From positions 1 to 44,511 of the forward strand of contig CADCHI010000016.1 in assembly GCA_902801165.1 (NCBI GenBank): a stretch of DNA of 44,511 nt, written 5' to 3'. Numbering within the stretch: the first letter of the stretch is position 1; the number at the start of each line of letters is the position of its first letter. The notes under the pieces were generated by a model that saw nothing but the letters and a program-made list of their open reading frames with translations, was not told where the DNA came from and searched no databases. Both the position numbers and the translations under genes were made by a program. Of this stretch, positions 6,839 through 27,701 are shown in pieces. This stretch comes from an uncultured Eubacteriales bacterium. GTDB lineage: Bacteria; Bacillota; Clostridia; Christensenellales; Aristaeellaceae.

Positions 6839-7381
6839 TCAATACTGGTTGTAGGACTTCGGCGCGCCACCGTTGGAGGCCTTCTTGCTGCCGCCGCCCG
6901 CGGAGAAGCCGATGTTCAGCACGGTGCCGATGCCGCTGAGCACCGTGCCGCCGACGAACAGCAGGAAGCCCAGGCCCACGTGCATGAAGGGCGCGAGGGC
7001 CGTGGCCGCGGTCTGGAAATCACCGGCGTTGATGCCGGTATCCACAAAGTTGGAGATTAGCGTGTTGGCGGTGACGATGTAGCCGATGGCCTCGCCGTTC
7101 AGCGGGTTGCGGTAGGTCACCAGATACCACACGATCACCACCAGGCCCAGCACGGTCACGCCCAGCTGGATCGGCCTGCTGTCGATCAGCCCGCTGACCA
7201 GCATCAGCACGCCCACCACGGGCACGCCGTAGAGCACGTTGTTCAGGTAGCGCGCGCAGGTCGCCCAGCCGATGGGGAACCCCACCAGGCCGAGGATGCG
7301 GATGCTCAGATAGCTGAAGATCATCGAGACCAGGCAGAGCACGCTGCCCACCAGCACCACAGGATTCAACTTCGTCTTCAT
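6839..7381 (-). CDS. Small multi-pass membrane protein, last gene of the GTPase/tubulin operon
   Basis: 180 residues. Four hydrophobic segments are visible: about 8-30 (VVLVGSVLCLVSMIFSYL), 48-66 (LYGVPVVGVLMLVSGLI), 72-89 (LGVTVLGLVVIVWYLV) and 134-158 (HVGLGFLLFVGGTVLSGIGTVL). The tail is Gly/Ser/Asn-rich and probably cytoplasmic. I recognise no family. It starts with ATG after GAGG at 7-base spacing. It is separated from the upstream surface-protein gene by a 92-bp gap with a strong hairpin and is closed by its own terminator. Its place in the operon suggests it is a membrane platform for the complex, but that is inference. Confidence 0.7.
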   Translation of the reverse strand: MKTKLNPVVLVGSVLCLVSMIFSYLSIRILGLVGFPIGWATCARYLNNVLYGVPVVGVLMLVSGLIDSRPIQLGVTVLGLVVIVWYLVTYRNPLNGEAIGYIVTANTLISNFVDTGINAGDFQTAATALAPFMHVGLGFLLFVGGTVLSGIGTVLNIGFSAGGGSKKASNGGAPKSYNQY

Positions 7382-7440
7382 GATTAAACCTCACTCTCTT
7401 CGCCGCGCACTGTCGCGCGCGGATATGCCATGATCACCGT

Positions 7441-7466
7441 CCCGCCCGGCGATGACGCCGGACGGG
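7441..7466 (-). other. Intercistronic hairpin
   Basis: Arms 7441-7451 and 7456-7466 pair with one mismatch around a 4-base loop, 8 bp after the stop codon of the 7474-9918 gene. No T-run follows on the minus strand, so it is more likely an mRNA-stabilising or partial-attenuation structure than a full terminator. Confidence 0.55.
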
Positions 7467-7473
7467 CGATGCA

Positions 7474-9918
7474 TCAGCGCTTGTAGACCAGCTCGATCCC
7501 GGTCTCCTTGATGGTGTAGACGGCCGGACTGCCCTCTTCCACGACCTGCTTCTCGGGGCCGCGGAGCGCGTGGGCCTTGTTGACCACCAGCACGCCGTCC
7601 TTCGCGGGCTTGAACACGAGCTTCTCCGCCAGCTCGCCGGAGGTCAGCAGGCTCATGGGCGGCAGGCCGCTCTGGCCGATCAGCGTGCCGAAGGCCACGG
7701 CCTTCTTGCCCCACTCCGTCAGGTCGATGGGCTTGCTGTTGTAGGTGCCATCCTTCGTGGTCACGTTCACCCGCAGCATGCCGCTGAACCTCGGCGCGGC
7801 GCTCTTGCGGATGAGCAGCACCAGCGCCAGAATCAACGCCACGATGCCCGCGCCGATGCCGGCGAGGCCACCGATGCCCAGCTTGTCCGTGAGCTGCTCC
7901 ATAACGGTCGGCTCCGGCGTGGGCTCCGGTGAGGGCGTGGGCGTGTCCGTCGGCTCAGGAGACGGCGTGACCAGTTCCACGACCTCAAAGGTCACTGTGG
8001 CGGAGGGTTCCGCCTGCGGGTCGGGTTCCTCGGTATCCGCGATCACCCAGGCGTTCAGCGTATAGCTGCCCACCCCGGGCTGCGCGCTGTAGCGCCAACC
8101 GTCGATGTTGCCCTCGGCGGCCACGGGCTCCGCGTCGTTCTCGGAGACGTACACGGCGATGTGGTCCAGCCAGCTGTCGTCCATGCCCGCGGTGGTAAGC
8201 TCGCGCACCGTGGTGTTGCTCAGGCTGAACTCCACATCGACGGAATCGCCCTCGGTGTACTGCTCCTGGGCCCCGGAAACCTCCAGCTTCGCGCCGGCGA
8301 TGATGGCCGGCACGCTGGTCAGCGTCACCTTCAGCGTTCCCTCAGCGGTCAGGCCCGCCTTGTTCGTGGCGGTCAGCTTCACCTCCACGGCGTGCTCGAC
8401 GCCCTCGAAGCCGCCCTCCAGCGTCAGGCCCTTCTCGCTGGTGTTGGCCAGGCCGTCGTCCGACAGCGCGACCTCCACCTTCTCGATGCCGTCACCGTTG
8501 GGGTCCTCGAACAGCGCGAACCGATCCTCGAGGACCTCATAGGTCCGCGGGCCGTCCACGGTGTCCTTCGCCGCGTACTCGGTCTGCTCCGCCGTGAACA
8601 CCGGCGTGCCCAGCACGCGGAAGCTCTGGCTCTCGGTCAGGTCAATATTGTAGTCCGATTTGGTGGCCGTCGCGGTCACCGTGCATTCGCCCGCCTCGGT
8701 GAGCGCCGCGCCGGGAATCACGCCGTCCTCCAGGGCCTCGCCGTTCAGCTCGAACGCCACCGGCACCCGGTCGGTTTCGGCTTCCCCGGCCAGCACCCGG
8801 GCGGTCAGCGGGATGTCCTCTCCGGCGCCCGCCACCACGTCCTCGATGGGGTCCAGCTCCAGGCGCACCTCGAGCATGCCGTTGGACAGCGCCTCGACGC
8901 TGTCGGCGGTCTCGGGCACGGCGCTGCTCAACAGGTAGCCGCCAAAGGCCGCCTCGAAGGGCTCCCCGGCGGATTCGGCGGATTCTTCTTCCCCGGAGGC
9001 CTCCGCAGCCGCGTCGCCGTCCTCTTCTGTCCTGCCGTCGTCCGGCCGCAGCGCGGGCTCCGCCGGCATTTCGCCGTCGACCGCCGACCGCTCGACGTCT
9101 TCCGCTGCCCGGGTCAGGGCCTCGGGGTCGGCGTACAGGAACAGGGGGCGCTCCAGCAGCGCCGCCGCGTCCAGCATGTCGTCCCGGCGCGTCAGCTTGC
9201 GGCTGGCGTAGGGGGCTTCGCCCAGCTTCTCCAGCACCAGGTTCACCAGGTCCATGGCCTTGGCCGTGGGCGTGTCGCCGGTCAGAAGGTGGTAATCCTT
9301 ATCGGTATACAGATCATTGGTCAGCTGGCCGATGATCTTTTGGTCTTTCTTGACGGCGTTCTCGCTGTCGTCCAGGCCGATGAACAGCATCTCGAGGCTT
9401 TCGCTTCTGGTCTTGTCCCGGTTTTCCATGCTGTCAAAGGCGCTGTCCTTGTCGCCGCACACGCCGTCCAGCAGCACCACCACCAGCCGGGATGCGCCCG
9501 CCTGGCCCGCGATCTGATCCACCCGCTGCCGCAGGTAGGTGGTCTCGCGGTTGCCCGTGCCCACGGGCATGCCCTCCATCGCCGTCACCGCCTGCGCCAG
9601 GCCGTCCGCCGCCGCGGGGTCCGCCGTGGCGGGCACGTCCGGCTCCTGGGGCACCGTGCCGACGAAGGACAGCTTCACGTCCGTGTCCGCAAGGGCGTTG
9701 GCGATCAGCGCCACGGAAAGCGTCAGCCCGGGGCGATTGGCCTCGGTGAGCACCTTGTTGGGCTTCTCGTTGGGGATCAGCAGCACCACTTCCCGGAAGG
9801 AAGCGGCCTGCGCCGCAGCATCGCTCTGAACCGCGTCCGCCGCGGGCTCCGCCAGGGCGCCCGCGCACAGCGCGAGCGCCAGCAGCAGGGCCAGCAACAA
9901 CCTGTAGAATGCTCTCAA
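7474..9918 (-). CDS. Surface protein with MIDAS-less vWA-like domain, cadherin/Ig-like repeats, one TM helix and cytoplasmic domain
   Basis: About 814 residues. The TTG at 9918 was chosen because AAAGGAGG precedes it at 7 bases and it opens directly on a 23-residue signal peptide (MRAFYRLLLALLLALALCAG). Residues about 40-225 look like a vWA fold (REVVLLIPN, ASRLVVVLLDG, LEMLFIGLDD), but the DxSxS metal motif is missing. An acidic linker and several beta-sandwich repeats follow; one has the cadherin-like RFALFEDPNGDG. Then come a Pro/Thr linker, a transmembrane helix (about 680-703) and a 111-residue cytoplasmic beta-rich domain ending IELVYKR. The architecture parallels the 23454-26567 protein, which keeps its MIDAS. 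It is probably a sensor or adhesion subunit of the complex. Confidence 0.8.
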   Translation of the reverse strand: MRAFYRLLLALLLALALCAGALAEPAADAVQSDAAAQAASFREVVLLIPNEKPNKVLTEANRPGLTLSVALIANALADTDVKLSFVGTVPQEPDVPATADPAAADGLAQAVTAMEGMPVGTGNRETTYLRQRVDQIAGQAGASRLVVVLLDGVCGDKDSAFDSMENRDKTRSESLEMLFIGLDDSENAVKKDQKIIGQLTNDLYTDKDYHLLTGDTPTAKAMDLVNLVLEKLGEAPYASRKLTRRDDMLDAAALLERPLFLYADPEALTRAAEDVERSAVDGEMPAEPALRPDDGRTEEDGDAAAEASGEEESAESAGEPFEAAFGGYLLSSAVPETADSVEALSNGMLEVRLELDPIEDVVAGAGEDIPLTARVLAGEAETDRVPVAFELNGEALEDGVIPGAALTEAGECTVTATATKSDYNIDLTESQSFRVLGTPVFTAEQTEYAAKDTVDGPRTYEVLEDRFALFEDPNGDGIEKVEVALSDDGLANTSEKGLTLEGGFEGVEHAVEVKLTATNKAGLTAEGTLKVTLTSVPAIIAGAKLEVSGAQEQYTEGDSVDVEFSLSNTTVRELTTAGMDDSWLDHIAVYVSENDAEPVAAEGNIDGWRYSAQPGVGSYTLNAWVIADTEEPDPQAEPSATVTFEVVELVTPSPEPTDTPTPSPEPTPEPTVMEQLTDKLGIGGLAGIGAGIVALILALVLLIRKSAAPRFSGMLRVNVTTKDGTYNSKPIDLTEWGKKAVAFGTLIGQSGLPPMSLLTSGELAEKLVFKPAKDGVLVVNKAHALRGPEKQVVEEGSPAVYTIKETGIELVYKR

Positions 9919-9958
9919 AGCGTCGTCCTCCTTTGAACTGTCATCGCGCAAGCGTCCG

Positions 9959-12900
9959 TCAACGCCTCAGGAAGCCAAACAGGCCGCCCTTGTGCCCACC
10001 CGTGTACAGGGTGGATTTTTGCAGGATCGCCTTGAGCGCCGCGTTCTTTTGTCTCTTTTGCAGGTCGCTGAATCCCTCGTCCTTGGCGCAGAAATCCGCC
10101 AGGGTCATCTGGGAAACCGCTTCGTCGTCGCCGTAGCCGGCGAGAACGTCATAGGTGAACACCACGATGGTGGAGATGTCCGTGTCGCGGCCATCCTTCC
10201 AGATGGAGCCGTCGTCCCCCAGCTTCATGGCCAGGAGCAGGTAGCGGTTCCACACATCGTTGTAATCCCGGGCCTTTGCCGCGCACAGCAGCAGCAGCAC
10301 GTCGATCTCCGAGCGGATCTCGCTGTGGGCCAGGCTGATCTGGTACACCCGGCCACAGAACACCCGCAGGTTGCCCATGTCCCGGCGATCCCGGTGCAGG
10401 CCGCGGAGCAGCTCCTCCGCCTTGCGGCGGTCCAGCGTCCCGCGCCCCAGCACCGCCGCGGCGTACTCGCCGCACCATACGGCGGTACTGACGGACAGGG
10501 GCTTGGAATCGTCCGCCTTCACCCGCTCCAGCAGCGCCTTCAGCTGGGCAAAGCCCTCGCAGGCCGCCCTGGACTGGCCGTCATAGGCCTGGCAGCACTC
10601 CTGGAAGGCCTCCAGGCACTTCTCCTGGATCAGCCTGTCCACGTGGGGCTCCAGTATCTCTGTGTACAGCCCGAACCGCTCGCCGCCCAGCAGCGCGGCG
10701 ACCTTCGTCAGTCCGCTGGTGACGGGCAGCTTTTCGCCCGAGACGCGCAGCTCCTCCACGCGCTTGCCAAAGTCCATATCCACGAGCGCGGCGAGCTGAC
10801 GCTGGCCGTCAGCGGCGGAAGCCGCGCGGGCCAGGCTTTCCCGGTTGACCCAGGGCAGTCCGCCGCCCTGCTCGACCATGTCGTCCAGCGTGGAGACGTC
10901 CTGGAGGAGCTGCAAAAAGCCGCTCAGCTCCATGGCGTCGCGCGCCGCCGCGACCCGGCCGTACTTCGCGTCGATCCGGACCGCGCCCCGGCGCATGCGG
11001 CTGTCCAGCTCCTCATGCATCTTTCCGGAGAGGGCCTCGATGCCGTCCAGCAGCGGCATGGCCACCGCGTCGTAATCCTCCCGGCCGCGCCACAGGGCCG
11101 CCAGCCGATCGTAGGTCTCCTCGGTCACGCCCGAGCAGTCGTTGCCATGTTCTATGTATCCCTTCACGCCCTCAAACAGCCGGTCGCTCAGCGGGCTCTG
11201 GGGCGCAAGTCCGGCGTCGTTCGCGTACTCCGCCACCGCGTTCAGCGTTTCCGGCGGCTGTTCCACCGCCGTGGAGGACCATTCCGCCAGCGCCTCGAGC
11301 AGCGCCTGCCGCGCCGGTTCGCCAGCGTCTTTGGCATAGCGGCCCAGCGCGTCGACGCGCACCTGGCCCTTCGCCTTCCTCAGCGCCTCGGCGATCAGCA
11401 CGAGGCCCTGGGCCCTGGGCAGTCCCGCCGCGTCGAAGGCCTCGGCCACCCGGGGCAGCATCGCGCCGTCGATCTCGCCGGCCTCGACGCACTCCCGGAC
11501 CTTTCCCTCGACCAGCGCCGCCATGTCCCGATCGTTTTCCATGGACGGGCAATAGCGGACAAAGCCGCCGATGTCGCCGCCGGCGAGGGCCGACCTGGCG
11601 AACTCCTCGGCCGCACGGGCATTCAGCTCCGGCATCCGCTTTTCCAGCAGCGGGTAGAGCGCCTTCACGTCCTCCAGGCCGCAGCTGGCGTTCAGGCTCT
11701 CGCGGATCACGCGGCCCAGCCCGGCCTGGTCGCCCTTGAGGACCGCCTTCATGGCAGGGTCCCCGGCCATCTGGCGCAGGGACGCGAGGGTCTCCGGCCT
11801 GATGGTTCGGGCGGAAGCCGCCAGCGCGCGGAAGATCTCCGTCACCGCAGGGGTGTTGTCGCCGTTGACCTGGCCCAGCCGCGCCTTCAGGCAGCGGACG
11901 AACCGGTCGAAGGCGTCGCCGTTCTCGCTCTTGGAGGGGTCTGTCAGCAGTTCAATGTAATCCCGCGCATAGCCCGTTCCGCCCAGCAGGCGGTCCAGGC
12001 GCTCGCCGTATTCCTCGTCCGAATAGGCGCTGGAGGCGGTCTTCTCCCGCTGGAGCAGGCGGCTCTCCAGGTCCTCCGCGTGCTTCAAGGCCATGCCCAG
12101 CACGTATTTGCCCTCGACCACCGGCAACTCGCACAGCTTCTGGGCCACCTCGTCGGCGATGCTCTCCTGGCCCTGACGCTTCAGGTCCGCGTAGTGCTGC
12201 AGCCAGCGCTCACAGGTCGCGAGGTCGCCGATGGAGCGGCCGTCCAGGAAGTTCGCCTTCTCGGCACGGATCAGCTCCAGCTGCAGGTCGCCGACCTCCT
12301 CCTCGTTGGCCAGGTCCAGCATGAACCGACCGTCCACCACGGGGCGCTTGCCCAGGCGTTCCGCCACCGCGGCGGCCCGCTCGTCGCGCCCCTGGCGCTT
12401 GAGGAACTTGTAGTGCCGCAGCCAGCGCCGCGCGCCCTCCACGTCTGCGGGGGCGGCGTTCTCCAGGGAGCGGCTGTATTCCACGTTGATCAGCGCGACC
12501 AGCATGTCCGCGTCCGCGCCGGCCTTCCTGGCCTCGTCGAAGGCGTACACCGGCTCCTCGTCGGTGCGCAGGCGATACTGCTCCATCAGCATCGCGCGAA
12601 TGTCCTCCGCGATGGGCTTGCTCTCCCGCGCGGCTTCGGTCATGCGCTCCATCCACAGGCCGAACACCTGGGCGCGCATGCCGGCGGCGCTGGCCTTCTG
12701 GCGCTCCAGCAGGTTTTGCATGGCGGACCAGTACAGCTCGCCGCGCACGTTCTGCTCCCGGAGCATGGCCAGGGTCTCGTCGGTGATCTTCCTGTTCAGC
12801 AGGTCCCGGATGGCCTCGACGGCCTCCGGCGCCACGCCAAAGTCGTTCTGCTCAAGATCCTTGTAGTAACCGATCCAGTCGCGGTACTTCTCCGCGGTCA

Positions 12901-15256
12901 GGTTGGTGACCTTCGGCGCGCTCTCCAGCGCCAGGTCTCCCAGCAGGCGCCAGTGCTGCGCCTGCTGCGCGATGCGCTTGCTGTCGGCATCGTCCCGGAG
13001 GTTGATCCGGGTCAGCATGGCGTAGATCTCGTCCGCGAAGGGCTTGCCCTCGTCCTGGGCGTCCTGCTGGCGGCCGATCCACCACTGGTAGTCCTCGGCG
13101 GAGACGGACTGGCGGGCGTTCACGTCCTCCAGCATGCTCCGCACCAAGGCGCACTCCAGCGCGCCCAGCTGGCGCGCGGCGGCGGTCTCCACGTACTGCC
13201 TCTGGTTCTCCTTCGGCGCGCGGTCCACGATCATGTCCACGATGCTGCCGGCGCACTCCGCGCCGATCATATCGTTCTCCAGGCGGCCCACCCAGACGTC
13301 GAAACGGTCGCTGTCCAGCGGCTGGGGGCTCGCGGCGAGCTGCCGGGCCTCCGACTCGGTCAGGCGGTTCCACAAATCCGGCAGCGCCCGCTGCGCGAGC
13401 AGGTCCGCCGCGGCGACCGTGGAATCCTCAAACTCGAACTGGCCGCACAGCAGCTCCCGGGCGGGCTGGGCCGCGTCCTCCAGGCGGGCGCCGTAGTCCC
13501 GCTTGGTGTCGGCGTAGAATTCCAGCACCTGCCGGTACTCCTGCTCGCTGAGCCTGCCGGGTTTGCGGGCATACAGGTCGTGTATGGTGCCCCGGACGAT
13601 GCGGATCGCCACGCCGTCCAGGCCGTGGGCCTCGGCGACGCTCAGCGGCGACGGCACCTCGGGATCGTCGAAGCGGAGCTGCTTGGACAGCTCCCGCTCC
13701 AAACGCAGGCACAGCGCGTCCTCGCCGCCCCGGCTGAGGGTGTTGTAGCGCTTGCACCAGTTCTCGAAATCCGCCGGGGAAAGCCCGCCGGTGCGCTCCA
13801 GCATCTGCAGCTCGCCCTCCACCAGCCTCAGGGACAGGGGGTCCAGCTCCAGCGCGGCGCGCCCGTTCTTTTCGTTCCAGAAATCAATGGCCGAGCCCTC
13901 GTAGTCCGGCACGCGGATCTGCCGGCCCAGCTGCCCCATCAGGCGGTCGGCCACAGCTACGGCCCGTTCGCTGCCGGTGCTCTCCCGCAGCGCCCTGTAG
14001 GCCGTCGCGAGGATGTCATACTCCGCCAGGCGCAGCTCCGGCATCCGCTCGGCCATTCCGGCCAGCTCGTCGAAGGCGTCCACCAGCGCCAGACACGCCT
14101 CGGCGCGGCCGACGTGATGCGCCTCCAGCAGCACGCACACGTTGTCCAGGGACTTGGCGGCGTACTGTATGGCCTTGTAGCGCTCGGCCACGCCGGCCTG
14201 GGCGAAGAAATCGATGTACAGCTCGGACATCGTGCACCAGCGGAGCAGCTCAAAGTCCGCCAGCACGTCCACGGCGTTGAAGCGGCGGCTGATCGCCTCG
14301 TAGAACCGGGGATAGCGGCCCTCGCACAGGTAGCCGATCAGCCGGTTCTCCCACGCGGCGTTGGGGTTGGACGCGCCGGGGTACACCTGGGGCGTCCTGC
14401 GCTTGTCCTCCTGCCAGCCGCGGAAGTCGAACATGTTCGCGGCGTCCCGGCTCGTGAAGCGCCCGCCGTCCAGATAGACGCGGCAGGCGGCGTCCGGCCA
14501 GTTTTCATCCCGGTTGTTCGGGGAGCAGCCGATGGCGATGCTCAGCATGGACATCACCTGCGGCGGCAGGGCCGGGGCCAGCTCCTCCCGGAAGAAGCGG
14601 ACGCACTCCGAAAGGGCTTTGGTCTGGTCGGGCAGGTCGGCGGCGTTGACCGCCAGCACCTCCACGTGGGGCGCGGTCCTGGGAGCGGTGGCATTCCAGG
14701 CCACGCGCTTTTCCATCATCCAGCGCATGCGCATCCAGCAGACCTGCCACACGCGCATCACCAGCTCCGCCAGCTCCCGGCTGAGAGGCTTGAACTCGGC
14801 GGGCTCGTCCGGCAGGTACAGGGACATGTCTCCGCCCCGCAGCGTCTCGCCGTTTTCAGCGATGTTCACGTACTGATCGGCGCGAATGAAATAGGACTCG
14901 TTGTCCAGCACCTGGCCGATGGCGCGGCGCAGCCGGTTGCGGTGCGCCTCGTCCCCCTCCACCAGGGTGCCGTCCAGCGCCATGGCGTGGGTGTAGTTGA
15001 TATCGCGCTTGTGGAAGATATAGTGGCTGTTTTCCACCGTCCACCGGTCAAAGGCATAGCTTTCGATTTCATAGACCGGCAGATAGACGACGCCGCTCGG
15101 CCCTGCGACCCCATACACGTTGTCGCGCCGCTTGAAGTTCGGGCTGACCAGGAACAGGTCCTGGAAATACTGGGGCTCGGAGCGGCGCTCGAAGCCATAG
15201 TTTTCCCGCAGCGAGGATCCCCGCAGCAGCGATGAATACGGAATATTGATTTGCAC
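9959..15256 (-). CDS. Giant repeat-rich protein resembling GTPase-associated (GAP1-type) proteins
   Basis: 1765 residues with no signal peptide or transmembrane helix, so cytoplasmic. The N-terminal about 280 residues (MQINIPYSSLLRGSS..., VYLPVYEIESYAFDRWTV, and a MSMLSIAIGCSP segment) resemble the N-terminal region of proteins catalogued as GTPase-associated protein 1; this is recognition from memory and untested. The remainder is almost entirely helical, with a recurring motif W-(I/L/V)-x-x-(Y/R)-x-x-(L/D), for example CERWLQHYADLKRQGQ and ARRWLRHYKFLKRQGR, at roughly 85-120 residue spacing. The GTG start at 15256 follows AAGGA at 9 bases. It lies 40 bp downstream of the GTPase gene, consistent with a GTPase partner or scaffold. 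Confidence 0.75.
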   Translation of the reverse strand: MQINIPYSSLLRGSSLRENYGFERRSEPQYFQDLFLVSPNFKRRDNVYGVAGPSGVVYLPVYEIESYAFDRWTVENSHYIFHKRDINYTHAMALDGTLVEGDEAHRNRLRRAIGQVLDNESYFIRADQYVNIAENGETLRGGDMSLYLPDEPAEFKPLSRELAELVMRVWQVCWMRMRWMMEKRVAWNATAPRTAPHVEVLAVNAADLPDQTKALSECVRFFREELAPALPPQVMSMLSIAIGCSPNNRDENWPDAACRVYLDGGRFTSRDAANMFDFRGWQEDKRRTPQVYPGASNPNAAWENRLIGYLCEGRYPRFYEAISRRFNAVDVLADFELLRWCTMSELYIDFFAQAGVAERYKAIQYAAKSLDNVCVLLEAHHVGRAEACLALVDAFDELAGMAERMPELRLAEYDILATAYRALRESTGSERAVAVADRLMGQLGRQIRVPDYEGSAIDFWNEKNGRAALELDPLSLRLVEGELQMLERTGGLSPADFENWCKRYNTLSRGGEDALCLRLERELSKQLRFDDPEVPSPLSVAEAHGLDGVAIRIVRGTIHDLYARKPGRLSEQEYRQVLEFYADTKRDYGARLEDAAQPARELLCGQFEFEDSTVAAADLLAQRALPDLWNRLTESEARQLAASPQPLDSDRFDVWVGRLENDMIGAECAGSIVDMIVDRAPKENQRQYVETAAARQLGALECALVRSMLEDVNARQSVSAEDYQWWIGRQQDAQDEGKPFADEIYAMLTRINLRDDADSKRIAQQAQHWRLLGDLALESAPKVTNLTAEKYRDWIGYYKDLEQNDFGVAPEAVEAIRDLLNRKITDETLAMLREQNVRGELYWSAMQNLLERQKASAAGMRAQVFGLWMERMTEAARESKPIAEDIRAMLMEQYRLRTDEEPVYAFDEARKAGADADMLVALINVEYSRSLENAAPADVEGARRWLRHYKFLKRQGRDERAAAVAERLGKRPVVDGRFMLDLANEEEVGDLQLELIRAEKANFLDGRSIGDLATCERWLQHYADLKRQGQESIADEVAQKLCELPVVEGKYVLGMALKHAEDLESRLLQREKTASSAYSDEEYGERLDRLLGGTGYARDYIELLTDPSKSENGDAFDRFVRCLKARLGQVNGDNTPAVTEIFRALAASARTIRPETLASLRQMAGDPAMKAVLKGDQAGLGRVIRESLNASCGLEDVKALYPLLEKRMPELNARAAEEFARSALAGGDIGGFVRYCPSMENDRDMAALVEGKVRECVEAGEIDGAMLPRVAEAFDAAGLPRAQGLVLIAEALRKAKGQVRVDALGRYAKDAGEPARQALLEALAEWSSTAVEQPPETLNAVAEYANDAGLAPQSPLSDRLFEGVKGYIEHGNDCSGVTEETYDRLAALWRGREDYDAVAMPLLDGIEALSGKMHEELDSRMRRGAVRIDAKYGRVAAARDAMELSGFLQLLQDVSTLDDMVEQGGGLPWVNRESLARAASAADGQRQLAALVDMDFGKRVEELRVSGEKLPVTSGLTKVAALLGGERFGLYTEILEPHVDRLIQEKCLEAFQECCQAYDGQSRAACEGFAQLKALLERVKADDSKPLSVSTAVWCGEYAAAVLGRGTLDRRKAEELLRGLHRDRRDMGNLRVFCGRVYQISLAHSEIRSEIDVLLLLCAAKARDYNDVWNRYLLLAMKLGDDGSIWKDGRDTDISTIVVFTYDVLAGYGDDEAVSQMTLADFCAKDEGFSDLQKRQKNAALKAILQKSTLYTGGHKGGLFGFLRR

Positions 15257-15296: not shown

Positions 15297-16946
15297 TCAG
15301 CCGTTTCCTCCGAACAGCCGCCTGAACCAGCCGCCGCGCTTCCTGTCGTCGTCCCCGTTCCCGTCGTCCCCGTTCCTGGCAGTCTCTACGGGGGTTACAG
15401 GCCTTTGGGAGGGGGTGCCGCCGATCGGGTTGCGGGTGCCGGGGCCCCAGTTGTTGTTCTCGGACTCGACGACGCCCCACCGGGCCAGCAGGTACAGCAG
15501 CGGCTCGAGAATGCGGTGCCGGGGCAGGTGCGCCTGGTTGGACATCACGAACTGGGTGTCGTCCGGGTTGTCCGCGGAGACGCGGCGCAGCGTGGACACG
15601 ACAAAGGCCCGGATATTCTCCGGCTTCAGGGTGTCGCCCGCCACCTTGCTGCAGATCTTTTCCTTCACGTCCTGCCAGTCATAGGCGGGGATGGCGTCGA
15701 TCACGCGCATGACCTCGTTGTCCACCGCGTTGATGATCTGGGGCTTCACCTTCCCGAAGTGGCCCTGATGGCTGCCGGGATCGGAGCTGGACTTCCAATC
15801 GTCGTACTCCTTGGAGTGGCACATCTTCAGCTGGCGCAGGTAGGCGCCCTTGAAGTAGTCGCCGCACTCGCCGGAGAACATCAGGTCCGCCTTGGTGAGC
15901 ACCAGCGCCATGTACTTCATCTGCTTGCCGATCTGGAACTCCTCCATGTTGGTCAGCGGCGCGGTGATGTCGGTATCCGGGGCCACGTACTGGATCTCCA
16001 CCTCGTTGCCGTTCTTGTCCAGCACGCTGCGCTCGTTCAGGTCGGCGTAGAGCTGGACCGGGTCCACCAACAGCATGGCGCCGTCGGAATTGAACAGGTC
16101 GTAATTGCCCGCCAGCTTGGCCACGAACTTGGTGTCCTCGCGGTAGACCTCGCCGGGCAGGTCGTAGACGCTGATCAGGTAGGACTGGCCGCCGCGCTTG
16201 ATGGCAAACACCAGCGGGCACACCGTGGCGCCCGCCACGGTGGCCTCGATCTTGCCCTCCTCGTTCGCCTCGCCCTCGGTCAGCTCCTTGGCGTCCACGA
16301 ACACCGACACGCTGTCCACCAGGTTGTAGACGTTCACCAGGCGCTTGATCTCCTGGTTCAGCACGAACTTGTAGACGGTCTTGCCGCTGGAGGGATAGCC
16401 GATCAGCGCGATGGAGTGGCAGTTTTCATCCGGGATCTCCAGCAGCACCTTCGGGATCTCGAAGTGGCAGTGGGGGCAGATCATGTTGGTCAGCAGGTCG
16501 GTGGAGCCCGCCGAGGCTTGGTCCGCCTCGCACAGCTGCACGGTCAGCGGGAAGTCCTTCGCGGCCTCGTCGTGCCACAGCACCACCTTGGCCACGCCGG
16601 GGCTGGCGTTCTCAGCGTCCCAATGGACGATGAAGCGCTCCTCGTTGCTGCCCCCGCCGGTGGAGAACCGGGCGCGGTTTTCATAGTACACGTTGTCCGG
16701 CGCCCACACGCCGATCTTCTCCGGGTTCTCCTCCTGCTTGGGCTCGCCGTCCGCCATGGCAGGCGCGTCGCCGAAGTCCATTGAGGGATTCATGTCCAGG
16801 GACATGTCGAAGATGCTCCCGCCGGCGCCGTCAAAGCGCTGTGCGCCCATGGTACTGCCCTGCGCGCCCGCGGTCATCTCGCGGGTCAGGTAGAACAGTA
16901 TATCCTTGTATTCAAAGTTCGCCTTGCAAAAGGGGCAGCTATGCAT
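15297..16946 (-). CDS. Zinc-ribbon P-loop GTPase (double-GTPase/TRAFAC-like)
   Basis: 549 residues. Paired cysteines at 4 and 7 (CPFC) and at 157 and 160 (CPHC) form a zinc ribbon split by a long insert that begins with a Gly/Met/Asp-rich stretch and includes a strand-rich part. The GTPase core follows: the P-loop GYPSSGKT at 183-190, a switch/G3 region with DLPG at 262-265 (VYDLPGEVY), and G4 TKAD at 351-354. The C-terminal tail is Pro/Arg/Asp-rich and ends GGWFRRLFGGNG. The layout resembles the DO-GTPase2-type proteins found beside GAP1-like proteins in predicted conflict systems. It starts with ATG after GGAG at about 9 bases. With the 1765-aa neighbour it likely forms the nucleotide-controlled core of the system. 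Confidence 0.85.
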   Translation of the reverse strand: MHSCPFCKANFEYKDILFYLTREMTAGAQGSTMGAQRFDGAGGSIFDMSLDMNPSMDFGDAPAMADGEPKQEENPEKIGVWAPDNVYYENRARFSTGGGSNEERFIVHWDAENASPGVAKVVLWHDEAAKDFPLTVQLCEADQASAGSTDLLTNMICPHCHFEIPKVLLEIPDENCHSIALIGYPSSGKTVYKFVLNQEIKRLVNVYNLVDSVSVFVDAKELTEGEANEEGKIEATVAGATVCPLVFAIKRGGQSYLISVYDLPGEVYREDTKFVAKLAGNYDLFNSDGAMLLVDPVQLYADLNERSVLDKNGNEVEIQYVAPDTDITAPLTNMEEFQIGKQMKYMALVLTKADLMFSGECGDYFKGAYLRQLKMCHSKEYDDWKSSSDPGSHQGHFGKVKPQIINAVDNEVMRVIDAIPAYDWQDVKEKICSKVAGDTLKPENIRAFVVSTLRRVSADNPDDTQFVMSNQAHLPRHRILEPLLYLLARWGVVESENNNWGPGTRNPIGGTPSQRPVTPVETARNGDDGNGDDDRKRGGWFRRLFGGNG

Positions 16947-19573: not shown

Positions 19574-19591
19574 GCTTGTACTCATGGGTTG

Positions 19592-22500
19592 TTACCAGGT
19601 GCGGATGAAATGGCCGAGGGGCTGGCTCAGCATCTCCAGCAGCCTGTTGCAGGTGTTGTAGGCATCGCGGTCCAGCGCGTGGTCGGCGTAGGCCATCATC
19701 ACGTTCTGCTTCAGGCCTTCCAGCTTGGTGCGCCACTCGGTGGCCCTGGCCTTGATCTCATCGGTCTGCGCGTCTCTGTCCTCCTTCTCGGACACCTCGC
19801 GCTGAATCCTCTCGGCCTTCTCCATCGCCAGGGCGATGGCGCCGGGCTCGTTCTTGCCGCCCGCGCTGTACCAGGCCGCAAACTGCAGCAGGATCGGGAA
19901 CTCTCTGAAGCACCCGTACATGCGCTCCAGCGCCACGTGCGGGTCCTCGGTGTTGTACACCTCGGCGCTGGCGCCCTCGATCACCGTGGTGGTGATCTTC
20001 ACGCGCAGGACCTTCAGCAGGTCGTACATCAGCATGCGGGCCACCGCGGCGCAGTCCGCGGTCAGGACGCTCTCGTCGGCCTGCTCGGGGATCTCGGCGA
20101 TGCGGGCCTTGGCCATGGCCACCAGGGCCTCCGCCTCCGCCAGGCGGGCCTTCACCAGGCCGCCCAGCTTCACGTGCTCGTCCATCTCCGCCACGACGTC
20201 GAGCCGGCGGCTCAGCGCCTCGCGGATCGCGCGGCCATAGGCGCTGGTCCACGCGTCCTTGATCTCCTCGGTCATGGTCGGATTGTAGCTGGGCTTCAAC
20301 TCGCGCAGCATGTTGGAGACGCCCAGCTTGTTGCCCCAGTCGGTGGCGGCGTCGTACAGGTGGCTGAAGGTCAGCGGCTCGCGGGTGCGGTTGTCGTCCA
20401 GCGCCACGATGGCATCGCGATAATCCTCAGCCAGCTTCTGCGCCTGCTGCAGCTGGGCCTTGTTGGCCTGGTTGGGCTCCAGCCTCAACAGGTCGTCCAA
20501 CGCGGCGCGGTCGAAGGGGATGGCGTCCAGCGCGTTCTGGATGGTGGTCTCGGAGGGCGTCACGCCGTCGATCTTCTTGAACACGCACTTGTAGGCGTTC
20601 ACGGCGGGCAGCTCGTTGTAGTTGAACTTGTAGTCCAGCTTCAGCACGCCCTGCTTCTCGGCTTCCTTCAGCTGCTCGGCGGCCTCGCCGGTCTCGCGGA
20701 CCTCGCGCTGGATGAAGGGATCGGGGATGCGGGCGGTGTCGCCCCAGGGCTGCTTCATCTGGTCGAGCAGGCCCGCGTCGTTGATGGCGCCGGGGTTCTC
20801 GTTCATGTACAGGTGATAGGCCTTGTGGGAGCGCTTGCTCTCGATGTAGACCCTGCGCAGCACGTCGATGTAGCCGTAGAAGTACATCGGCAGGCCGCCC
20901 TTGTCGTTGACCCAGAAGATGCGGTCGCTGCTCTGGGTGTGCTTGATGATGGCCAGCAGGTTGTTGTTCTTGCAGTAGGCCCGGATGCCCTGCTCGATGT
21001 CCGTGGCGCCCTGGGGCAGCGTGATCATGCTGACGTGCACGGCGATGTTGTTGGGCAGGTCCATGGACTCGGGGGACGGATAGAACATGACCTCCGCGCC
21101 GGTGCGCAGCTTGGCGCACAGCTGGTTGGACACGTAGTTCTGCAGCGCGGCGCCGTCGCCCACGTGCTGGTAGGTCTGGATCTTCTGGGTCAGGGACAGG
21201 CCGCCCACGGCGACGAACATGTTCTCGCGCATGGCGTCCACGGTCTGGTTCACCAGCGCGGGCAGCTCGCTGGGCGCGAGCTTGGCGTCCATCATCCGCT
21301 CGGTCACGGCGATGGCGCTGTTGTAGATACCCTGCACCAGGGTGTCCCGCTTGTCCTGATCGGCGAACTTCTGGGTCAGGTCGTTGGCCATGGCGCCGGT
21401 GTCGAACAGCGTGGCGGTGGTATTGGCACGCGCCTTGCGCAGGTCCTCCTCGTAGGCGTTCTTCTGGGTGCGGATGGCGGTGACGATGTCGCCCAGCACC
21501 GCGGTGTACAGGGACAGCCGCTTCTGGAAGTCGTTCAGCGCCTCCTTCAGCGCGGCGTAGTAGGCGTCGGCCTGGGTCGCGTTGTAGAGGGTCTGGACCT
21601 TGGCCATGTAGTCCTCGTAGTTCTGGCGATTGCGCAGGATGCCGCCCAGCACGCCCGGGTGAAGGAACTTCTCGAAGCTGCTCTTGCAGTGGTCCTTGTA
21701 GCTCTGCATGTCGCTGGCGGCGGTCGACTTCTTGCCGTCCAGCACCGCGCCGTAGTCCGCAACCTTCTTGCCCAGGCAGTTTTCACCCTCGCTGAGCATC
21801 GCGTACAGGTACTCGGGGCCGCGCTTGATGTCCTGGCCGATCAGGCGGGCCTGGGTCAGGAACACGCTCCAGATGTCCTCGGCCAGCTGGATCTCCTCGT
21901 TGCCCTTGCTGTGGCGCAGCGCGTCCGCGAAGTTGGCATAGGCGGTGCCGTGGGGCGCGGAGCTGCCGTCCTGGGAGCGCAGGGTGTCCACGTCGAAGCC
22001 GTCAAAGCTGGGGATGGTGTGGCGCTGGTTGAAGCCCTGGCGCACCACCGCCGAGGCAGTGCCGGCCTGCATGGTGTCCAGGGACATCACGTTCTTCTTG
22101 AACTCCTCGATGTCCAGGCCGTCCATGATGGCCTTGTGGGTGTCGAAGCGGGAGATCGCCTCGTCGTAGATCATCGACCACTCCTGCAGCTCCATCAGCC
22201 GATCCTCGCCGGCGTTGCTGTAGGCGCCGAGGGAGTGATAGCGGGTGGGCATCGGATAGGGATGATGCATCATGCTGATGATGGCGGACTGGTTGGAGTG
22301 GGCGCTCTGGAAGCCGTAGGCGTTGGCGTCGTTGGTCGCGCCGCCGTCGCCCTTGCCCTCCTCGTCCACGACCTCGAAGGACTCGTTGCCGGCGGCGTCG
22401 CTGCTCTCGTAGCAGTGCACCAGGTACTCGGCGACGGCGTCGGTGTTGTGCTCGTAGGCGTTCTCGATGTTCACGCCGTGGTCGTTCTGGGAGCACAGCA

Positions 22501-23299
22501 GGTATACGTCGTCAAAGGGCGCGCCGGTCCAGGTCAGCGTGTCGGTATTGGTGTACTGCTGCTGCAGGGTGACGCCGGTGGTTTCCGCGTCCATCCAGAA
22601 GTCCAGTTCCTTCAGGAAGGCGTAGCTGTTGCTGCTGTACAGCTTGGTGTTGGCGTCCGAGCCGCCTGCGTTGTGGGCGATGGTCACATCGGGCATCATC
22701 AGGTAGGCCTCGATGTTGATCCTGTAGCCGCCCCGGCGGGCGATGTCCCGCAGGATGTAGGCGATGTCCAGGATGGTGCCGGAGCCCGTGCCGCCGGAGA
22801 TGCCGGCCATCAGCTTGACGGAGATGCGGCTGTTCCTGGCCGCGTTCGCCGCGTTCACGGCGCCCAGGGAATTCAGCTTGCCGGACAGGGCCATGCGGAT
22901 GTTGTTGAACTTGTCGAACAGCATCAGGCGGGAGACCTGGCGATAGCAGCCCGCGCCGTCGCGGGTGACGTCGATGCCCTCCAGGCGGGGGTCCAGCCAC
23001 TCGGTGACGTAATTCTTCCTGCCGAGGGCGCCCTTGATCGTCTCGAAGTCGCCGCCGATGTCCACGAACTCGCCGTTCTCCAGCTTCATGCCGTAGAGGC
23101 GCTTGTCGCCGATGCCGCTCTCGGTATCGATCTCCAGGTACTCGGTGCGCGGCGGCCGATTGGCCTCGGTGCCGTCCGGGAACCGCTGGCCCTCAAAGCG
23201 CCTGTTGAATTCAGACTTGGTCCGCATCAGCATGCTGAAACCGGTTCCGCCCAGTCCCAGGATCAGTACCGGCGCGTCGATCTTCTTAACCTTAGGCAT
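19592..23299 (-). CDS. Tubulin-like GTPase with long C-terminal helical region
   Basis: 1235 residues. The N-terminal domain is a tubulin/FtsZ-type GTPase of the Tubulin_2-like group. It has an opening strand and glycine loop APVLILGLGGTG (residues 9-20), the signature loop GISGGTGSGT (166-175) that binds the nucleotide phosphates, and a following strand IEAYLMMPDV that is typical of the next loop. Normal FtsZ and TubZ are 350-480 residues, so the long rest is extra. It appears helical with coiled-coil stretches (for example EEAEKLKEAEKQ-like and LRRLDVVAEMDEHVKLGG regions). No signal peptide. The ATG has AAGGGGG 8 bases upstream. It could polymerise beneath the membrane and organise the surface proteins encoded beside it; polymerisation is not shown by sequence alone. 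Confidence 0.85.
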   Translation of the reverse strand: MPKVKKIDAPVLILGLGGTGFSMLMRTKSEFNRRFEGQRFPDGTEANRPPRTEYLEIDTESGIGDKRLYGMKLENGEFVDIGGDFETIKGALGRKNYVTEWLDPRLEGIDVTRDGAGCYRQVSRLMLFDKFNNIRMALSGKLNSLGAVNAANAARNSRISVKLMAGISGGTGSGTILDIAYILRDIARRGGYRINIEAYLMMPDVTIAHNAGGSDANTKLYSSNSYAFLKELDFWMDAETTGVTLQQQYTNTDTLTWTGAPFDDVYLLCSQNDHGVNIENAYEHNTDAVAEYLVHCYESSDAAGNESFEVVDEEGKGDGGATNDANAYGFQSAHSNQSAIISMMHHPYPMPTRYHSLGAYSNAGEDRLMELQEWSMIYDEAISRFDTHKAIMDGLDIEEFKKNVMSLDTMQAGTASAVVRQGFNQRHTIPSFDGFDVDTLRSQDGSSAPHGTAYANFADALRHSKGNEEIQLAEDIWSVFLTQARLIGQDIKRGPEYLYAMLSEGENCLGKKVADYGAVLDGKKSTAASDMQSYKDHCKSSFEKFLHPGVLGGILRNRQNYEDYMAKVQTLYNATQADAYYAALKEALNDFQKRLSLYTAVLGDIVTAIRTQKNAYEEDLRKARANTTATLFDTGAMANDLTQKFADQDKRDTLVQGIYNSAIAVTERMMDAKLAPSELPALVNQTVDAMRENMFVAVGGLSLTQKIQTYQHVGDGAALQNYVSNQLCAKLRTGAEVMFYPSPESMDLPNNIAVHVSMITLPQGATDIEQGIRAYCKNNNLLAIIKHTQSSDRIFWVNDKGGLPMYFYGYIDVLRRVYIESKRSHKAYHLYMNENPGAINDAGLLDQMKQPWGDTARIPDPFIQREVRETGEAAEQLKEAEKQGVLKLDYKFNYNELPAVNAYKCVFKKIDGVTPSETTIQNALDAIPFDRAALDDLLRLEPNQANKAQLQQAQKLAEDYRDAIVALDDNRTREPLTFSHLYDAATDWGNKLGVSNMLRELKPSYNPTMTEEIKDAWTSAYGRAIREALSRRLDVVAEMDEHVKLGGLVKARLAEAEALVAMAKARIAEIPEQADESVLTADCAAVARMLMYDLLKVLRVKITTTVIEGASAEVYNTEDPHVALERMYGCFREFPILLQFAAWYSAGGKNEPGAIALAMEKAERIQREVSEKEDRDAQTDEIKARATEWRTKLEGLKQNVMMAYADHALDRDAYNTCNRLLEMLSQPLGHFIRTW

Positions 23300-23352
23300 T
23301 GATGTATCCCCCTTACTTGATCATTAGGTGATTGGGTTGCTTTGCTCATCAA

Positions 23353-23439
23353 CTGAAGCCCGGCCCTCCGGGTTTCAGGAAAATGCGTTTCAGGCTCGTC
23401 CGGGCGGGCGGATCGAAGGCCGCGACCTCGGCGGCCTTC
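23353..23439 (-). other. Two intercistronic hairpins between the first two operon genes
   Basis: Hairpin A: arms 23353-23363 and 23368-23378, 11 bp with one mismatch. Hairpin B: arms 23415-23423 and 23431-23439, 9 bp perfect. Both lie in the 154-bp gap between the vWA gene and the tubulin-like gene and lack a T-run. They probably modulate read-through or message stability. Confidence 0.55.
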
Positions 23440-23453
23440 AATCCCCGTCGCCG

Positions 23454-26400
23454 TCAGTCCCTCTTGAACACGACGGTGTTCTCGTTGCCGGCGGTGTCGC
23501 GGAAGGTCACGGTGATGCGGCCGTTGCGGCACCACTTGGCCTTGCGTCCGCGGCTGATATCCGTGCCGTCCACCTTCACGCTGGCGCCGGCGGGCAGCCG
23601 CATCTTGTTCTTCAGCTCCACCACCAGGCGGTTGCCGGTGGTCGGCCACAGCTGGACCTTGCTGAACGCCTCGGAGCCGCTGCCGTCGTCCATGATGGAG
23701 AAGTGGTCCGCCAGCACCTTCAGCGTGCAGGGCTTGCGGTGGGTGCGGCCGAACCGGCGGCTCTCCTTGCCCTCGTCGGAGAGCACGGCGAAGTCGTTCT
23801 GGGTCACGCGGTACTCGTCGTTGTGCCTCGGCCACGGGCGGTGCACCACGTACTTGTTGATCAGCACCGCGGCGATTGCGGCCAGGATCAGCAGGATCAC
23901 CGCGTAGGTGATGATGCACATCAGCCGGTCGCGGGAGGAGGTGATGTTGTAGTCGATGGCGTAGGACACGGAAGCGCCGTCCTCGTCGGTGGCGGTCACC
24001 GTCAGGTGGGCTTTGCCGAAGCGGGCGGCCGTCACGTTCAGGGTGTCGCCCTCCAGCGCATTTTCAGCGTCGGCGTTGGTCTCCACCACGGGGCCCTCCT
24101 TGGCGATCAGGCCAAAGGTGCGCAGGATGGCGCGGGCGGGGGTGAAGAGGTCCTTCGCCTCCTCCTGATTCTCCGCGGAGGCGGTAAAGCTCAGGCTGTC
24201 GAAAGCGCCGTCGGCATCGGTGAACCAGTCACTCAGCGTGTGGCTCGACTTGGCCATCTCCGGGTTGTCCTTGTCTGCGGTGAACACCACGCCGGATTCG
24301 CCGGGCTCGCCGCCCTTTTCGGTCAGCAGCTTGTCCAGATCCTCGACGACCACGGGGGGCACGTTGACCACCTCGAAGGTGTTGCTGCTCAGCTCACGGG
24401 GCTCGCCGCCGTTGATGCTGTAGGTGGAATCCACCTGCACCCTGCCGGTGTTGCGCTTGGCCGCGACGGTGTACTCCAGACCCTCCTCGGGTTTAACCTC
24501 GGTGTCCTTGGGCTTCTCCACCGTCTCGTGCTTCACGGCCAGCACGCTGTCCTCGCCCAGCTTGTCGTACAGTCCCAGCTCGTCCAGCTCGGTATAGGGG
24601 AATTCGCCTGTCTTGTCTTCCGGCGGCGCCACTTTGTAGTTCACCTGCACCGTGGCGCTGCCGCCCTTGCCCAGCTGGCCCGGCTGCAGCCGGGTTCCCA
24701 GCTCGTTAATCTCAGGCTGGACGGGATCTGCGCTGATGGTCAGGCAGTCGTTCAGCAGATCGCCGACGGAGATCACGTTGGCGGTGAAGCGCACGGGTCC
24801 GGACTCGTTGCCCGCGCCGTCCTGGGCTTTGACCTCCACATAGCCGTCCTTCAGGTTGTCGTCGCTCACCCGGCGGACGACCAGCTTCTCGTTGTCAACG
24901 ATCTTGCCCTCCAGTCCGTTCTGGGAGGCGATCACATAGGTCAGCGGGTCGTCGTCTTCGTCCTTGAAGTAGTCGGACAGCGGCTCGGACTCCAGTTCGT
25001 CCGGGGCATTTTCGTCGAAGATGTCGTTGATGCGGATCGTGCCCAGGAACTGGGGCCCATCCACCGTTGCCACGGGCTTGTCGCCGAACACCACGAACAC
25101 GTTGTTCTCGTTGTTCTCCGTCTCCCGGAACAGGTGGTCGCCGCTGGCGCTCACCGCGTAGTGGAAGGTCTGCTGGTCGGGGGCGTTCTTGTTTACAAAG
25201 CTGGCGGTGTTCAGGTCGATGTCATAGACAAAGCGGTGATTGTCGTAGTCGGCGGTCATCGGCGTCTCCAGCACGGGGGTGTTGTTGGCGTCGTAGATCG
25301 TCAGCACAGCCTCGATGCCGGTGCCATCCGCCTGGCGGCCGCCGTACAGGCTGTCGTCGCTGCTGGGGTTGCCCGCCGCGTCCACAAACCAGGACTCGAA
25401 GGTCACGTGCTCGTTCTTCCTGAACGCGTTGTCGTCCGCGCCGGTCAGGCCCGCCATCAGTTCGATCTGGTAGTTGTACAGCAGGTCGATGGTCATCTGC
25501 TCGTCCGCGGAGACGTCGGCGGCCCGGCGCGCGCTCACCTTCCAGGTGCCCGGGTCCGGATCGATGATCTTCAGGCTGACGAAGTCGTAGCGCTGATATT
25601 CTCCCTTCACACCAGCACCTGTATTAATATGATCGTTGGTATACATGATCAGGTTCGGCCCGTCACCGATCGGCTGGCCGTTGTTGTCCAGCACGGAGAC
25701 GCCGCCCTCGATCTTGTTTCTGTCCACTACCACGTTGACCTCGGTGATGGCCTTGTGGGGAACGCGGATGTCGAACACGATGTCGTCGCCGTCCCCAGCC
25801 TGGGCGGTGATCGTCTCCTGCTCGGTGCCGATCAGCTCGGCGAAGACGCCGCTGAAGCGGTCCTTCAGCTCGGAGGGCTGCACGCCGGACCAGTAGGTCT
25901 CGCTGGAGGTGGCGATGCTGCGCAGCAGGTTCTGGCCGTTGGGATCGTTGCCGAACTGCATGCAGTAGATGCGGCCGCCGAAGGCTTCGATCTGCCGCGC
26001 GCAATTCACCGCCAGCTGCTCGTTCTCGGCGGAAGCCGGCTCGGATTTGCCGTCACCCAGCACCAGCACCAGCTTCTGGTTGTCGGTCTTGTCGCTGCTG
26101 TTCATCAGGTCCAGCGCCTGCTGCATCCCCACGGCGTAGTTGGTATGACCAGAGTGGAGGTACGCGGTGCTGGCGTAGTCCACATCGTTCGCGTACAGCG
26201 AATCGCACAGCGCCCTGCGCCGGACCGGATCGGAGACGTCGATCCAGTTCTTCCACAGATTGCCGTGCTCAGCATTGTATTTGTCAATGTTGCGAGTATC
26301 TTCGCTCGTAAACGGCACGATGGCAGCCTTGGAGAACTTCGCGTCGCACATGTTGATCAGCATGGTCGCCGCGTCCAGGCACATCGTCTCCGGATCAGCG

Positions 26401-26567
26401 TGAGGGATCTCGGTGCCCGGAAAGGTCGAGAAGGAAAAGTCGATCACGATCACCACGTCCAGCCCCGGGTTCTTGACCTCGGCCAGCGCGCCCGTCAGGC
26501 CGCCGAACACGCCCAGCGCGAACACTGCGGCCATCATCAGCGCAAGCAGTTTCCTCATTTGCTTCAC
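23454..26567 (-). CDS. Surface vWA protein with MIDAS, cadherin/Ig-like repeats, one TM helix and cytoplasmic domain
   Basis: About 1037 residues, first gene of the seven-gene run. The GTG at 26567 (MKQMRKLLALMMAAVFALG) gives a clean signal peptide and has GGAG 8 bases upstream; ATG 26558 is the alternative. A vWA domain starts near residue 33 with an intact metal motif DFSFS (VVIVIDFSFSTF), and contains KLVLVLGDGKSEP and RIYCMQFGND. Repeats with cadherin-like LSDYFKDEDDDPLTY and LSDWFTDADG motifs follow. A transmembrane helix lies at about 883-906 (YAVILLILAAIAAVLI). The 131-residue cytoplasmic domain is beta-rich with basic patches (ESRRFGRTHRKP) and ends TVVFKRD. The protein probably binds a ligand outside and signals to, or anchors, the tubulin/GTPase machinery inside. 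Confidence 0.85.
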   Translation of the reverse strand: MKQMRKLLALMMAAVFALGVFGGLTGALAEVKNPGLDVVIVIDFSFSTFPGTEIPHADPETMCLDAATMLINMCDAKFSKAAIVPFTSEDTRNIDKYNAEHGNLWKNWIDVSDPVRRRALCDSLYANDVDYASTAYLHSGHTNYAVGMQQALDLMNSSDKTDNQKLVLVLGDGKSEPASAENEQLAVNCARQIEAFGGRIYCMQFGNDPNGQNLLRSIATSSETYWSGVQPSELKDRFSGVFAELIGTEQETITAQAGDGDDIVFDIRVPHKAITEVNVVVDRNKIEGGVSVLDNNGQPIGDGPNLIMYTNDHINTGAGVKGEYQRYDFVSLKIIDPDPGTWKVSARRAADVSADEQMTIDLLYNYQIELMAGLTGADDNAFRKNEHVTFESWFVDAAGNPSSDDSLYGGRQADGTGIEAVLTIYDANNTPVLETPMTADYDNHRFVYDIDLNTASFVNKNAPDQQTFHYAVSASGDHLFRETENNENNVFVVFGDKPVATVDGPQFLGTIRINDIFDENAPDELESEPLSDYFKDEDDDPLTYVIASQNGLEGKIVDNEKLVVRRVSDDNLKDGYVEVKAQDGAGNESGPVRFTANVISVGDLLNDCLTISADPVQPEINELGTRLQPGQLGKGGSATVQVNYKVAPPEDKTGEFPYTELDELGLYDKLGEDSVLAVKHETVEKPKDTEVKPEEGLEYTVAAKRNTGRVQVDSTYSINGGEPRELSSNTFEVVNVPPVVVEDLDKLLTEKGGEPGESGVVFTADKDNPEMAKSSHTLSDWFTDADGAFDSLSFTASAENQEEAKDLFTPARAILRTFGLIAKEGPVVETNADAENALEGDTLNVTAARFGKAHLTVTATDEDGASVSYAIDYNITSSRDRLMCIITYAVILLILAAIAAVLINKYVVHRPWPRHNDEYRVTQNDFAVLSDEGKESRRFGRTHRKPCTLKVLADHFSIMDDGSGSEAFSKVQLWPTTGNRLVVELKNKMRLPAGASVKVDGTDISRGRKAKWCRNGRITVTFRDTAGNENTVVFKRD

Positions 26568-27686: not shown

Positions 27687-27701
27687 ATGGAGGTCAGAAC
27701 C

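Follow-up and report, generated by a model that had tools for sequence, protein, structure and literature searches.

Operons that join a tubulin-like protein of the FtsZl1 family to von Willebrand factor A (vWA) proteins and to a P-loop GTPase, in some cases a fusion with a DnaJ-like cysteine-rich domain, were predicted in 2010 and also hold lineage-specific membrane proteins (PMC2875224, Makarova & Koonin, 2010). Membrane remodelling was proposed as their function, and transport or signalling was suggested by a reviewer of that paper. The Tubulin_2 proteins are those of the 2010 paper, and are distinct from FtsZ and tubulin proper (PMC9871819). In 2020, DO-GTPase/GAP1 systems were described as conflict systems (PMC7159879, Kaur et al., 2020). 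The sections of that paper dealing with them name a G3 glutamate and zinc-binding Cys pairs as features of DO-GTPases (section 27), place a tubulin at the centre of about 52% of GAP1-N2 neighbourhoods, and mention an FNIII component in GAP1-N2 systems, as well as Firmicutes versions with two tubulins and two vWA proteins. Here we describe a seven-gene operon from an uncultured Eubacteriales bacterium of the Aristaeellaceae, found in a stretch of 44,511 nucleotides (contig CADCHI010000016.1, assembly GCA_902801165.1; hereafter the window) within a 3.5-Mb, 98-contig draft genome. A first-pass annotation of the window knew of no characterised system with this full set of genes, which is too strong a statement, as such systems were predicted in the 2010 paper and in section 29 of the 2020 paper. 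Since tubulin/vWA/GTPase and GAP1-N2/DO-GTPase systems are already in print, we read the operon, with moderate confidence, as a divergent form, from the Clostridia, of the GAP1-N2/DO-GTPase tubulin-theme systems that would work as proposed below. Among the matches listed in searches of open-licence PMC articles, we recognised no experimental test of such a system.

Gene content and order compared with described systems

Seven open reading frames (ORFs), all on the minus strand and of the sizes claimed for them earlier, are transcribed from 26567 to 6839 in the order vWA1, tubulin-like protein, P5, GTPase, giant, Rec2 and small membrane protein, and the operon is real as a genomic unit. The 1235-residue tubulin-like protein (19592..23299) matched Tubulin_2 in a Pfam search (E = 1.4e-42), in agreement with the first-pass annotation, and has the N-terminal FtsZ-like domain of FtsZl1 proteins with both GTP-binding loops, T1 (GLGGTG) and T4 (SGGTGSG), intact. 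A search of its profile against the PDB gave nothing below E = 0.078. The GTPase (15297..16946, 549 residues) had been described as a P-loop GTPase with a split zinc ribbon, and this is what was found: the G1 (GYPSSGKT), G3 (DLPGE) and G4 (TKAD) motifs are intact, and one Cys pair, CPFC (residues 4-7), lies near the N-terminus with the other, CPHC (157-160), just before the P-loop. It is thus a TRAFAC GTPase with a glutamate in the Walker B region and N-terminal zinc-ribbon cysteines. The match to DO-GTPase2 (E = 8.8e-5, 22.7 bits) fell under the Pfam cut-off of 27. Relatives from the corresponding operons of genomes G446, G526 and G498 scored above the cut-off and the G221 copy below it, and the iterated GTPase family takes in DO-GTPase2 proteins that are above the cut-off. 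No match to the GTPase was found among solved structures at E <= 0.1. Both the tubulin-like protein and the GTPase therefore match the families to which they had been assigned.

The two proteins taken earlier for vWA surface receptors each carry, by hydropathy, an N-terminal signal-like segment and one further transmembrane (TM) segment, but a vWA domain could be recognised in vWA1 only. vWA1 (23454..26567), with a signal peptide, a vWA domain, one TM segment and a cytoplasmic tail, is 1037 residues long from the GTG at 26567 and 1047 from the first start of the ORF, which opens at 26597. It matched Pfam VWA below the cut-off (E = 0.004) and keeps the metal ion-dependent adhesion site (MIDAS) motif DFSFS (residue 53 of the ORF opening at 26597). 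For Rec2 (7474..9951, 825 residues), Pfam gave no vWA match at E <= 1 and only a chance-level DUF, and the DxSxS motif is absent from the first 330 residues of five receptors in the Rec2 position (window, G221, G726, G718 and G670). Residues 697-805 of Rec2, its TM and tail region, are matched by the C-terminal portion of the vWA1 profile. The cadherin-like repeats reported for both proteins did not hold up, the sole repeat-type match being Big_6 in vWA1 (E = 0.11, under the cut-off). The last gene does encode a small membrane protein, as had been noted (6839..7381, 180 residues), in which 4-5 overlapping hydrophobic segments suggest about four helices; it had no Pfam match at E <= 1. No such segments were seen in the other four operon proteins.

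Presence of the operon is patchy. A single-sequence search with the tubulin found two of 248 genomes of the order and the tubulin profile 10 of 150 genomes of the family (own genome included in both), with none of the six congeners listed; at the level of the class, Tubulin_2 was matched in 14 of 391 genomes, again including the genome itself, 11 of them over the cut-off. A near relative is a metagenome-assembled genome (MAG), JAUMVG010000020.1 (locus L005; JAUMVG below), whose tubulin is 95% identical to that of the window. The genes are not rarely found together: 12 of 21 tubulin neighbourhoods, a count that omits four genomes with weak Tubulin_2 matches (G501, G551, G506 and G449), also hold the GTPase (window, JAUMVG, G629, G221, G718, G693, G726, G670, G623, G526, G446 and G498), and the GTPases of all 12 share the Cys-pair layout. 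Of the remaining nine, four (G743, G654, G371 and G316) are on contigs under 8 kb. The other five (G721, G311, G556, G281 and G331) span 30-35 kb each and hold no such GTPase by profile, and Tubulin_2 therefore occurs in other settings too.

The order vWA1, tubulin, P5, GTPase, giant is common to the first eight of these 12 loci, with two tubulins in G221 and an extra vWA gene after vWA1 in G718; the G629 stretch stops within the giant. The small membrane gene is present in the window, JAUMVG, G221, G718, G693 and G670, and absent from G726. Because this order recurs in six genomes of the same family with far-diverged tubulins (the window protein is 22-23% identical over its full length to the two G221 copies), the gene set goes beyond chance. 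The same core order, with variations, is found in G526, G623, G446 and G498 (GAP1 was not identified in the G623 locus), and six further phylum-level loci of family f135, chosen by P5, have the order vWA, tubulin, pseudotubulin, vWA, GTPase, GAP1-N2. The window has its core genes in the same order as the G526 and f135 operons, but in those operons P5 is visibly derived from tubulin and GAP1 is matched by the GAP1-N2 reference profile, which holds for neither protein of the window. As separate observations, the two tubulin-like genes of G221 lie in tandem (L006 3685-10998), the first having CGSTGSG rather than SGGTGSG as its T4 loop, and in G064, a genome from the taxonomic order to which the window's genome belongs, three DO-GTPase2-type genes lie around a GAP1-N2 gene (L048 5025-17677); a match to the vWA1 profile is close by, and the locus yielded no tubulin.

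The operon resembles the FtsZl1/vWA/GTPase operons of PMC2875224 in its Tubulin_2 protein, a vWA protein with an intact MIDAS, lineage-specific TM proteins and a P-loop GTPase with a cysteine-rich region. It differs from them, as they are described there, in that its seven proteins have no protein kinase or OmpA match, and in the addition of P5 and the GAP1-like giant. With the tubulin theme of Kaur et al. (2020) it shares a tubulin-like protein, whose gene in the neighbourhood fits the GAP1-N2 tubulin theme, a zinc-ribbon GTPase with a G3 glutamate and a large protein directly downstream, a vWA receptor, a putative FNIII-type domain and TM proteins. It lies outside the Firmicutes sub-version (two tubulin and two vWA genes) as outlined in that source, since a second tubulin and a second vWA are unrecognisable in the window. 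In place of two tubulins there is one intact tubulin and a probable pseudotubulin, the putative FNIII-like domain is fused to P5, the second receptor has no MIDAS, and the giant has a large hypervariable middle and no GAP1 match in Pfam. New here are the weak in-register match of the giant to GAP1-N2/M, its hypervariable residues 751-1500, the second "vWA" receptor that lacks a MIDAS, and P5, which is probably a pseudotubulin without GTP loops fused to an FNIII-like domain.

P5, a probable pseudotubulin

P5 (16990..19515) is 841 residues long counted from a GTG and 837 from the next ATG, the latter being the correct size under which it had been listed as an unknown. We conclude that it is probably a member of the tubulin family, a pseudotubulin that would lack the GTP site in its N-terminal part and that is fused to a C-terminal FNIII/Ig-like domain (about residues 655-745). 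The assignment is made because P5 takes the place of the second, GTP-loop-less tubulin of related operons (8/8), and wherever the GTPase is present (12 loci), the tubulin is immediately followed by a protein of 588-856 residues. P5 proteins of the G526 type are derived from tubulin (P = 4.6e-9), and both GTP loops are gone in eight of eight. Iterated profiles had taken in the G526 and G623 P5 sequences, so that their E-values, and later E-values of the tubulin profile, are not independent; in the independent test, 20 sequences (two of them duplicates) were searched with a tubulin profile built without P5. All eight G526-type proteins were homologous to Tubulin_2 in this search (E = 1.2e-12 to 0.0071). 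Family-level P5 profiles scored 30.9-34.1 against the pseudotubulin profile, as compared to shuffle maxima of 17.0-20.1 (10 shuffles each), with the match at the corresponding FDxVYLLSDxNExG region, and an eight-row P5 profile that included the window matched the tubulin family weakly, above shuffles. Comparison of P5 groups A and B gave P = 0.09 at full length and P = 0.001 for the 450-residue N-terminal parts, the latter a single value without a shuffle control.

P5 could instead be an unrelated helical adaptor that only stands where the second tubulin would be, which we regard as somewhat unlikely. Several results speak for an adaptor and weigh against a pseudotubulin. The window P5 had no Pfam match at E <= 1; its E-value with the P5-free tubulin profile was 0.37, and no P5 outside the G526 type did better than 0.097. 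The P5 pair of the window and JAUMVG, taken alone, scored at shuffle level both against tubulin and against G526-type P5, the P5 proteins of G446 and G498 were at or under shuffle level against every group compared, and a full-length AlphaFold2 model was unusable (pLDDT 32). On the other side, an adaptor accounts poorly for a protein of this size right after the tubulin at 12 of 12 loci and for family-level scores well apart from the shuffles in a shared motif region, and we retain the reading of P5 as a probable pseudotubulin. No clear match (P = 0.06-0.09) was obtained between its C-terminal profile and the small free-standing ORFs of G446 and G526.

The giant protein and its likely relation to GAP1

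The 1765-residue giant (9959..15256) lies directly downstream of the GTPase, the position of the GAP1 gene. The first-pass annotation had called it GAP1-like; its size and position stand, and a weak in-register profile match was found, but there is no Pfam support. From gene position and this profile-profile match, we consider homology to GAP1 likely, though not proven. With hhalign, whose P-values refer to a single comparison with no secondary structure, an N-terminal profile of eight members (300 residues, G221 numbering) was aligned to one of 15 GAP1-N2/M members. With the window rows included, the score was 29.7 (P = 0.003), whereas 40 column shuffles reached 20.8 at most and the reversed profile 16.4; a forced alignment was collinear across 264 columns. 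Removal of the window and JAUMVG rows gave a score of 34.2 (P = 0.0006) over 197 collinear columns (64-291 to 72-290), a comparison with no separate shuffles. When parts of 750 residues were set against the 15-member profile, P was 0.0046 over 33 columns, and the comparison for G446_4, in a repeat run, gave P = 0.0065. Counting against homology, the giant had no Pfam match at E <= 1, GAP1 included; the unforced match with the window rows extended over only 34 columns (270-303 to 257-290); and a smaller, six-member GAP1 set gave no signal (P = 0.62). Neither HMMER nor hhalign run on few sequences linked the giant to GAP1.

Conservation of the giant between the window and JAUMVG is uneven. In bins of 150 residues, identity was 90-98% for residues 1-600, 76% for 601-750, and 57, 44, 67, 59 and 60% for the hypervariable residues 751-1500, returning to 89 and 97% at the C-terminal end past 1500 (the middle segment, residues 601-1500, corresponds to 10757..13456). 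The remaining operon proteins are 81% (Rec2) to 95% identical between the two genomes, and five neighbouring genes 92-96%. Rec2 follows a milder version of the pattern, with a tail at 96-98% and an ectodomain at 78-93%. The rapidly changing segment of the giant could be a recognition part.

Proposed working of the operon

The gene set, its order and the motifs support the idea, already present in the first-pass annotation, that surface receptors, GTPase and tubulin-like protein make up a machine linked to the membrane, and the products most likely form a membrane-anchored, GTPase-gated assembly that would serve in conflict or envelope stress. vWA1, bearing a MIDAS, and Rec2, lacking one, would sample the cell envelope and signal via their cytoplasmic tails, with the zinc-ribbon DO-GTPase acting as the switch. 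The divergence pattern suggests that the GAP1-like giant may be a hub whose conserved ends would bind partners that stay the same, while its hypervariable middle would bind a changing target. As output, the tubulin-like GTPase may assemble near the membrane with the P5 pseudotubulin as its probable partner or cap, and the small multi-helix protein may be an anchor or membrane effector. A bolder version, to which we give little credence, makes the operon a cytoskeleton-based receptor for immunity or stress: tubulin and an FNIII-bearing pseudotubulin dead for GTP binding would co-assemble when switched by the envelope receptors via the DO-GTPase and a GAP1-like hub, the hypervariable middle of which would recognise the intruder. 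Predictions of FtsZl1/DO-GTPase/GAP1 systems date from 2010 and 2020, and the variant in the window offers handles for experiment. Its probable pseudotubulin raises the question of whether any polymer is heteromeric, swapping the hypervariable segment could show whether specificity resides there, and the metal-ion motif is kept in only one of the two receptors. If this reading is true, a bacterial tubulin would be tied to sensing, and not to division or plasmid segregation.

Some findings weigh against a divergent tubulin-theme conflict system. The operon is flanked by NAD-salvage, Rnf and cell-wall genes rather than by a defence island, no defence gene being recognised among them by Pfam, and PADLOC 2.0.0 at E <= 0.1 returned for the seven proteins only HEC-01B on Rec2 (E = 0.008), which we take as a chance match. 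Carriage by phage is unsupported (a phage search with the tubulin gave no match), as is carriage by plasmids, where two Meiothermus-group records matched the tubulin at 27% over 22% of its length and the GTPase gave none. The tail of vWA1 (88% identical to that of JAUMVG) is no better kept than its ectodomain (77-92%). Finally, in draws of 391 class genomes, matched to the Tubulin_2 draw by their genome handles, GAP1-N2 was found in 19 (18 over the cut-off) and DO-GTPase2 in 28 (11 over the cut-off); most of these genomes had no Tubulin_2 match, and G526 alone had both Tubulin_2 and GAP1-N2 matches, so that Pfam alone would miss the link.

The same gene set could encode a membrane-remodelling or envelope-organising cytoskeleton, in which the GTPase would control polymerisation of the tubulin at the membrane, shaping membrane or vesicles, with no role in defence. 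This is the function argued for the FtsZl1/vWA/GTPase operons in PMC2875224, three of the seven products here are membrane proteins, the flanking genes are housekeeping genes, and DO-GTPases have been mentioned alongside membrane-related stresses (PMC11237479). Patchy presence and a hypervariable segment, however, suit a housekeeping shape factor poorly, and the T6-H7 filament elements were reported in PMC2875224 to be unidentifiable in the FtsZl1 family; we hold this explanation to be unlikely, and prefer the receptor-linked assembly for conflict or envelope stress. There is a still smaller chance that faulty assembly or alignment has produced the low-identity middle of the giant, as one genome is a MAG and the other a multi-contig draft, the alignment has indels and large gaps, and synonymous divergence (dS) is raised in the middle too, but both ORFs (1765 residues in the window, 1633 in JAUMVG) are open along the entire gene, no tandem DNA array longer than 17 bases and no internal repeat by self-BLAST was found, and the giant varies in length in five other family members (1060-1391 residues). 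The raised dS, a point against the hub, means that misalignment or recombination may account for part of the divergence. Values of w are noisy at this distance, reaching 0.90 in the flanking NAD synthase gene and 1.12 in residues 601-750 of vWA1.

Transcription signals and surroundings

A sigma-70-like promoter on the minus strand (26639..26667, TTGACA-17-TAGAAT) matches 11 of 12 consensus positions, bearing out the strong promoter proposed earlier; a scan of that stretch gave six sites over both strands as compared to 0.8 expected. Of the single terminator, a likely GC-rich hairpin with a short run of four T is visible by eye on the minus strand (about 6755..6796), but a terminator scanner reported nothing. 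To the left of the operon lie genes for DUF218, a polysaccharide deacetylase and alanine dehydrogenase, and to the right those for an NrtR-type regulator, isochorismatase, NAD synthase and NAPRTase, followed by Rnf and cytochrome c552 genes. A comparison aimed at an empty site had no useful result. DUF218, the left neighbour, was present at 58-63% in five of six congeners. Of the eleven flanking genes examined, no other was found in these five stretches, save a small one in G672; the right neighbour was without a match in four congeners and had partial matches of 32-37% in two.

A scan of viral contigs gave one weak Tubulin_2-like match (24%, L094 10001-10501). The NAD-salvage cluster with its NrtR-like Nudix regulator (26952-31034) is divergent from the operon and also present in JAUMVG. 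Beyond it, at 34589-43241, the Rnf genes are followed by genes for an NrfA-like cytochrome c552, ResB and a cytochrome c assembly protein, and Rnf-linked nitrite ammonification is possible.

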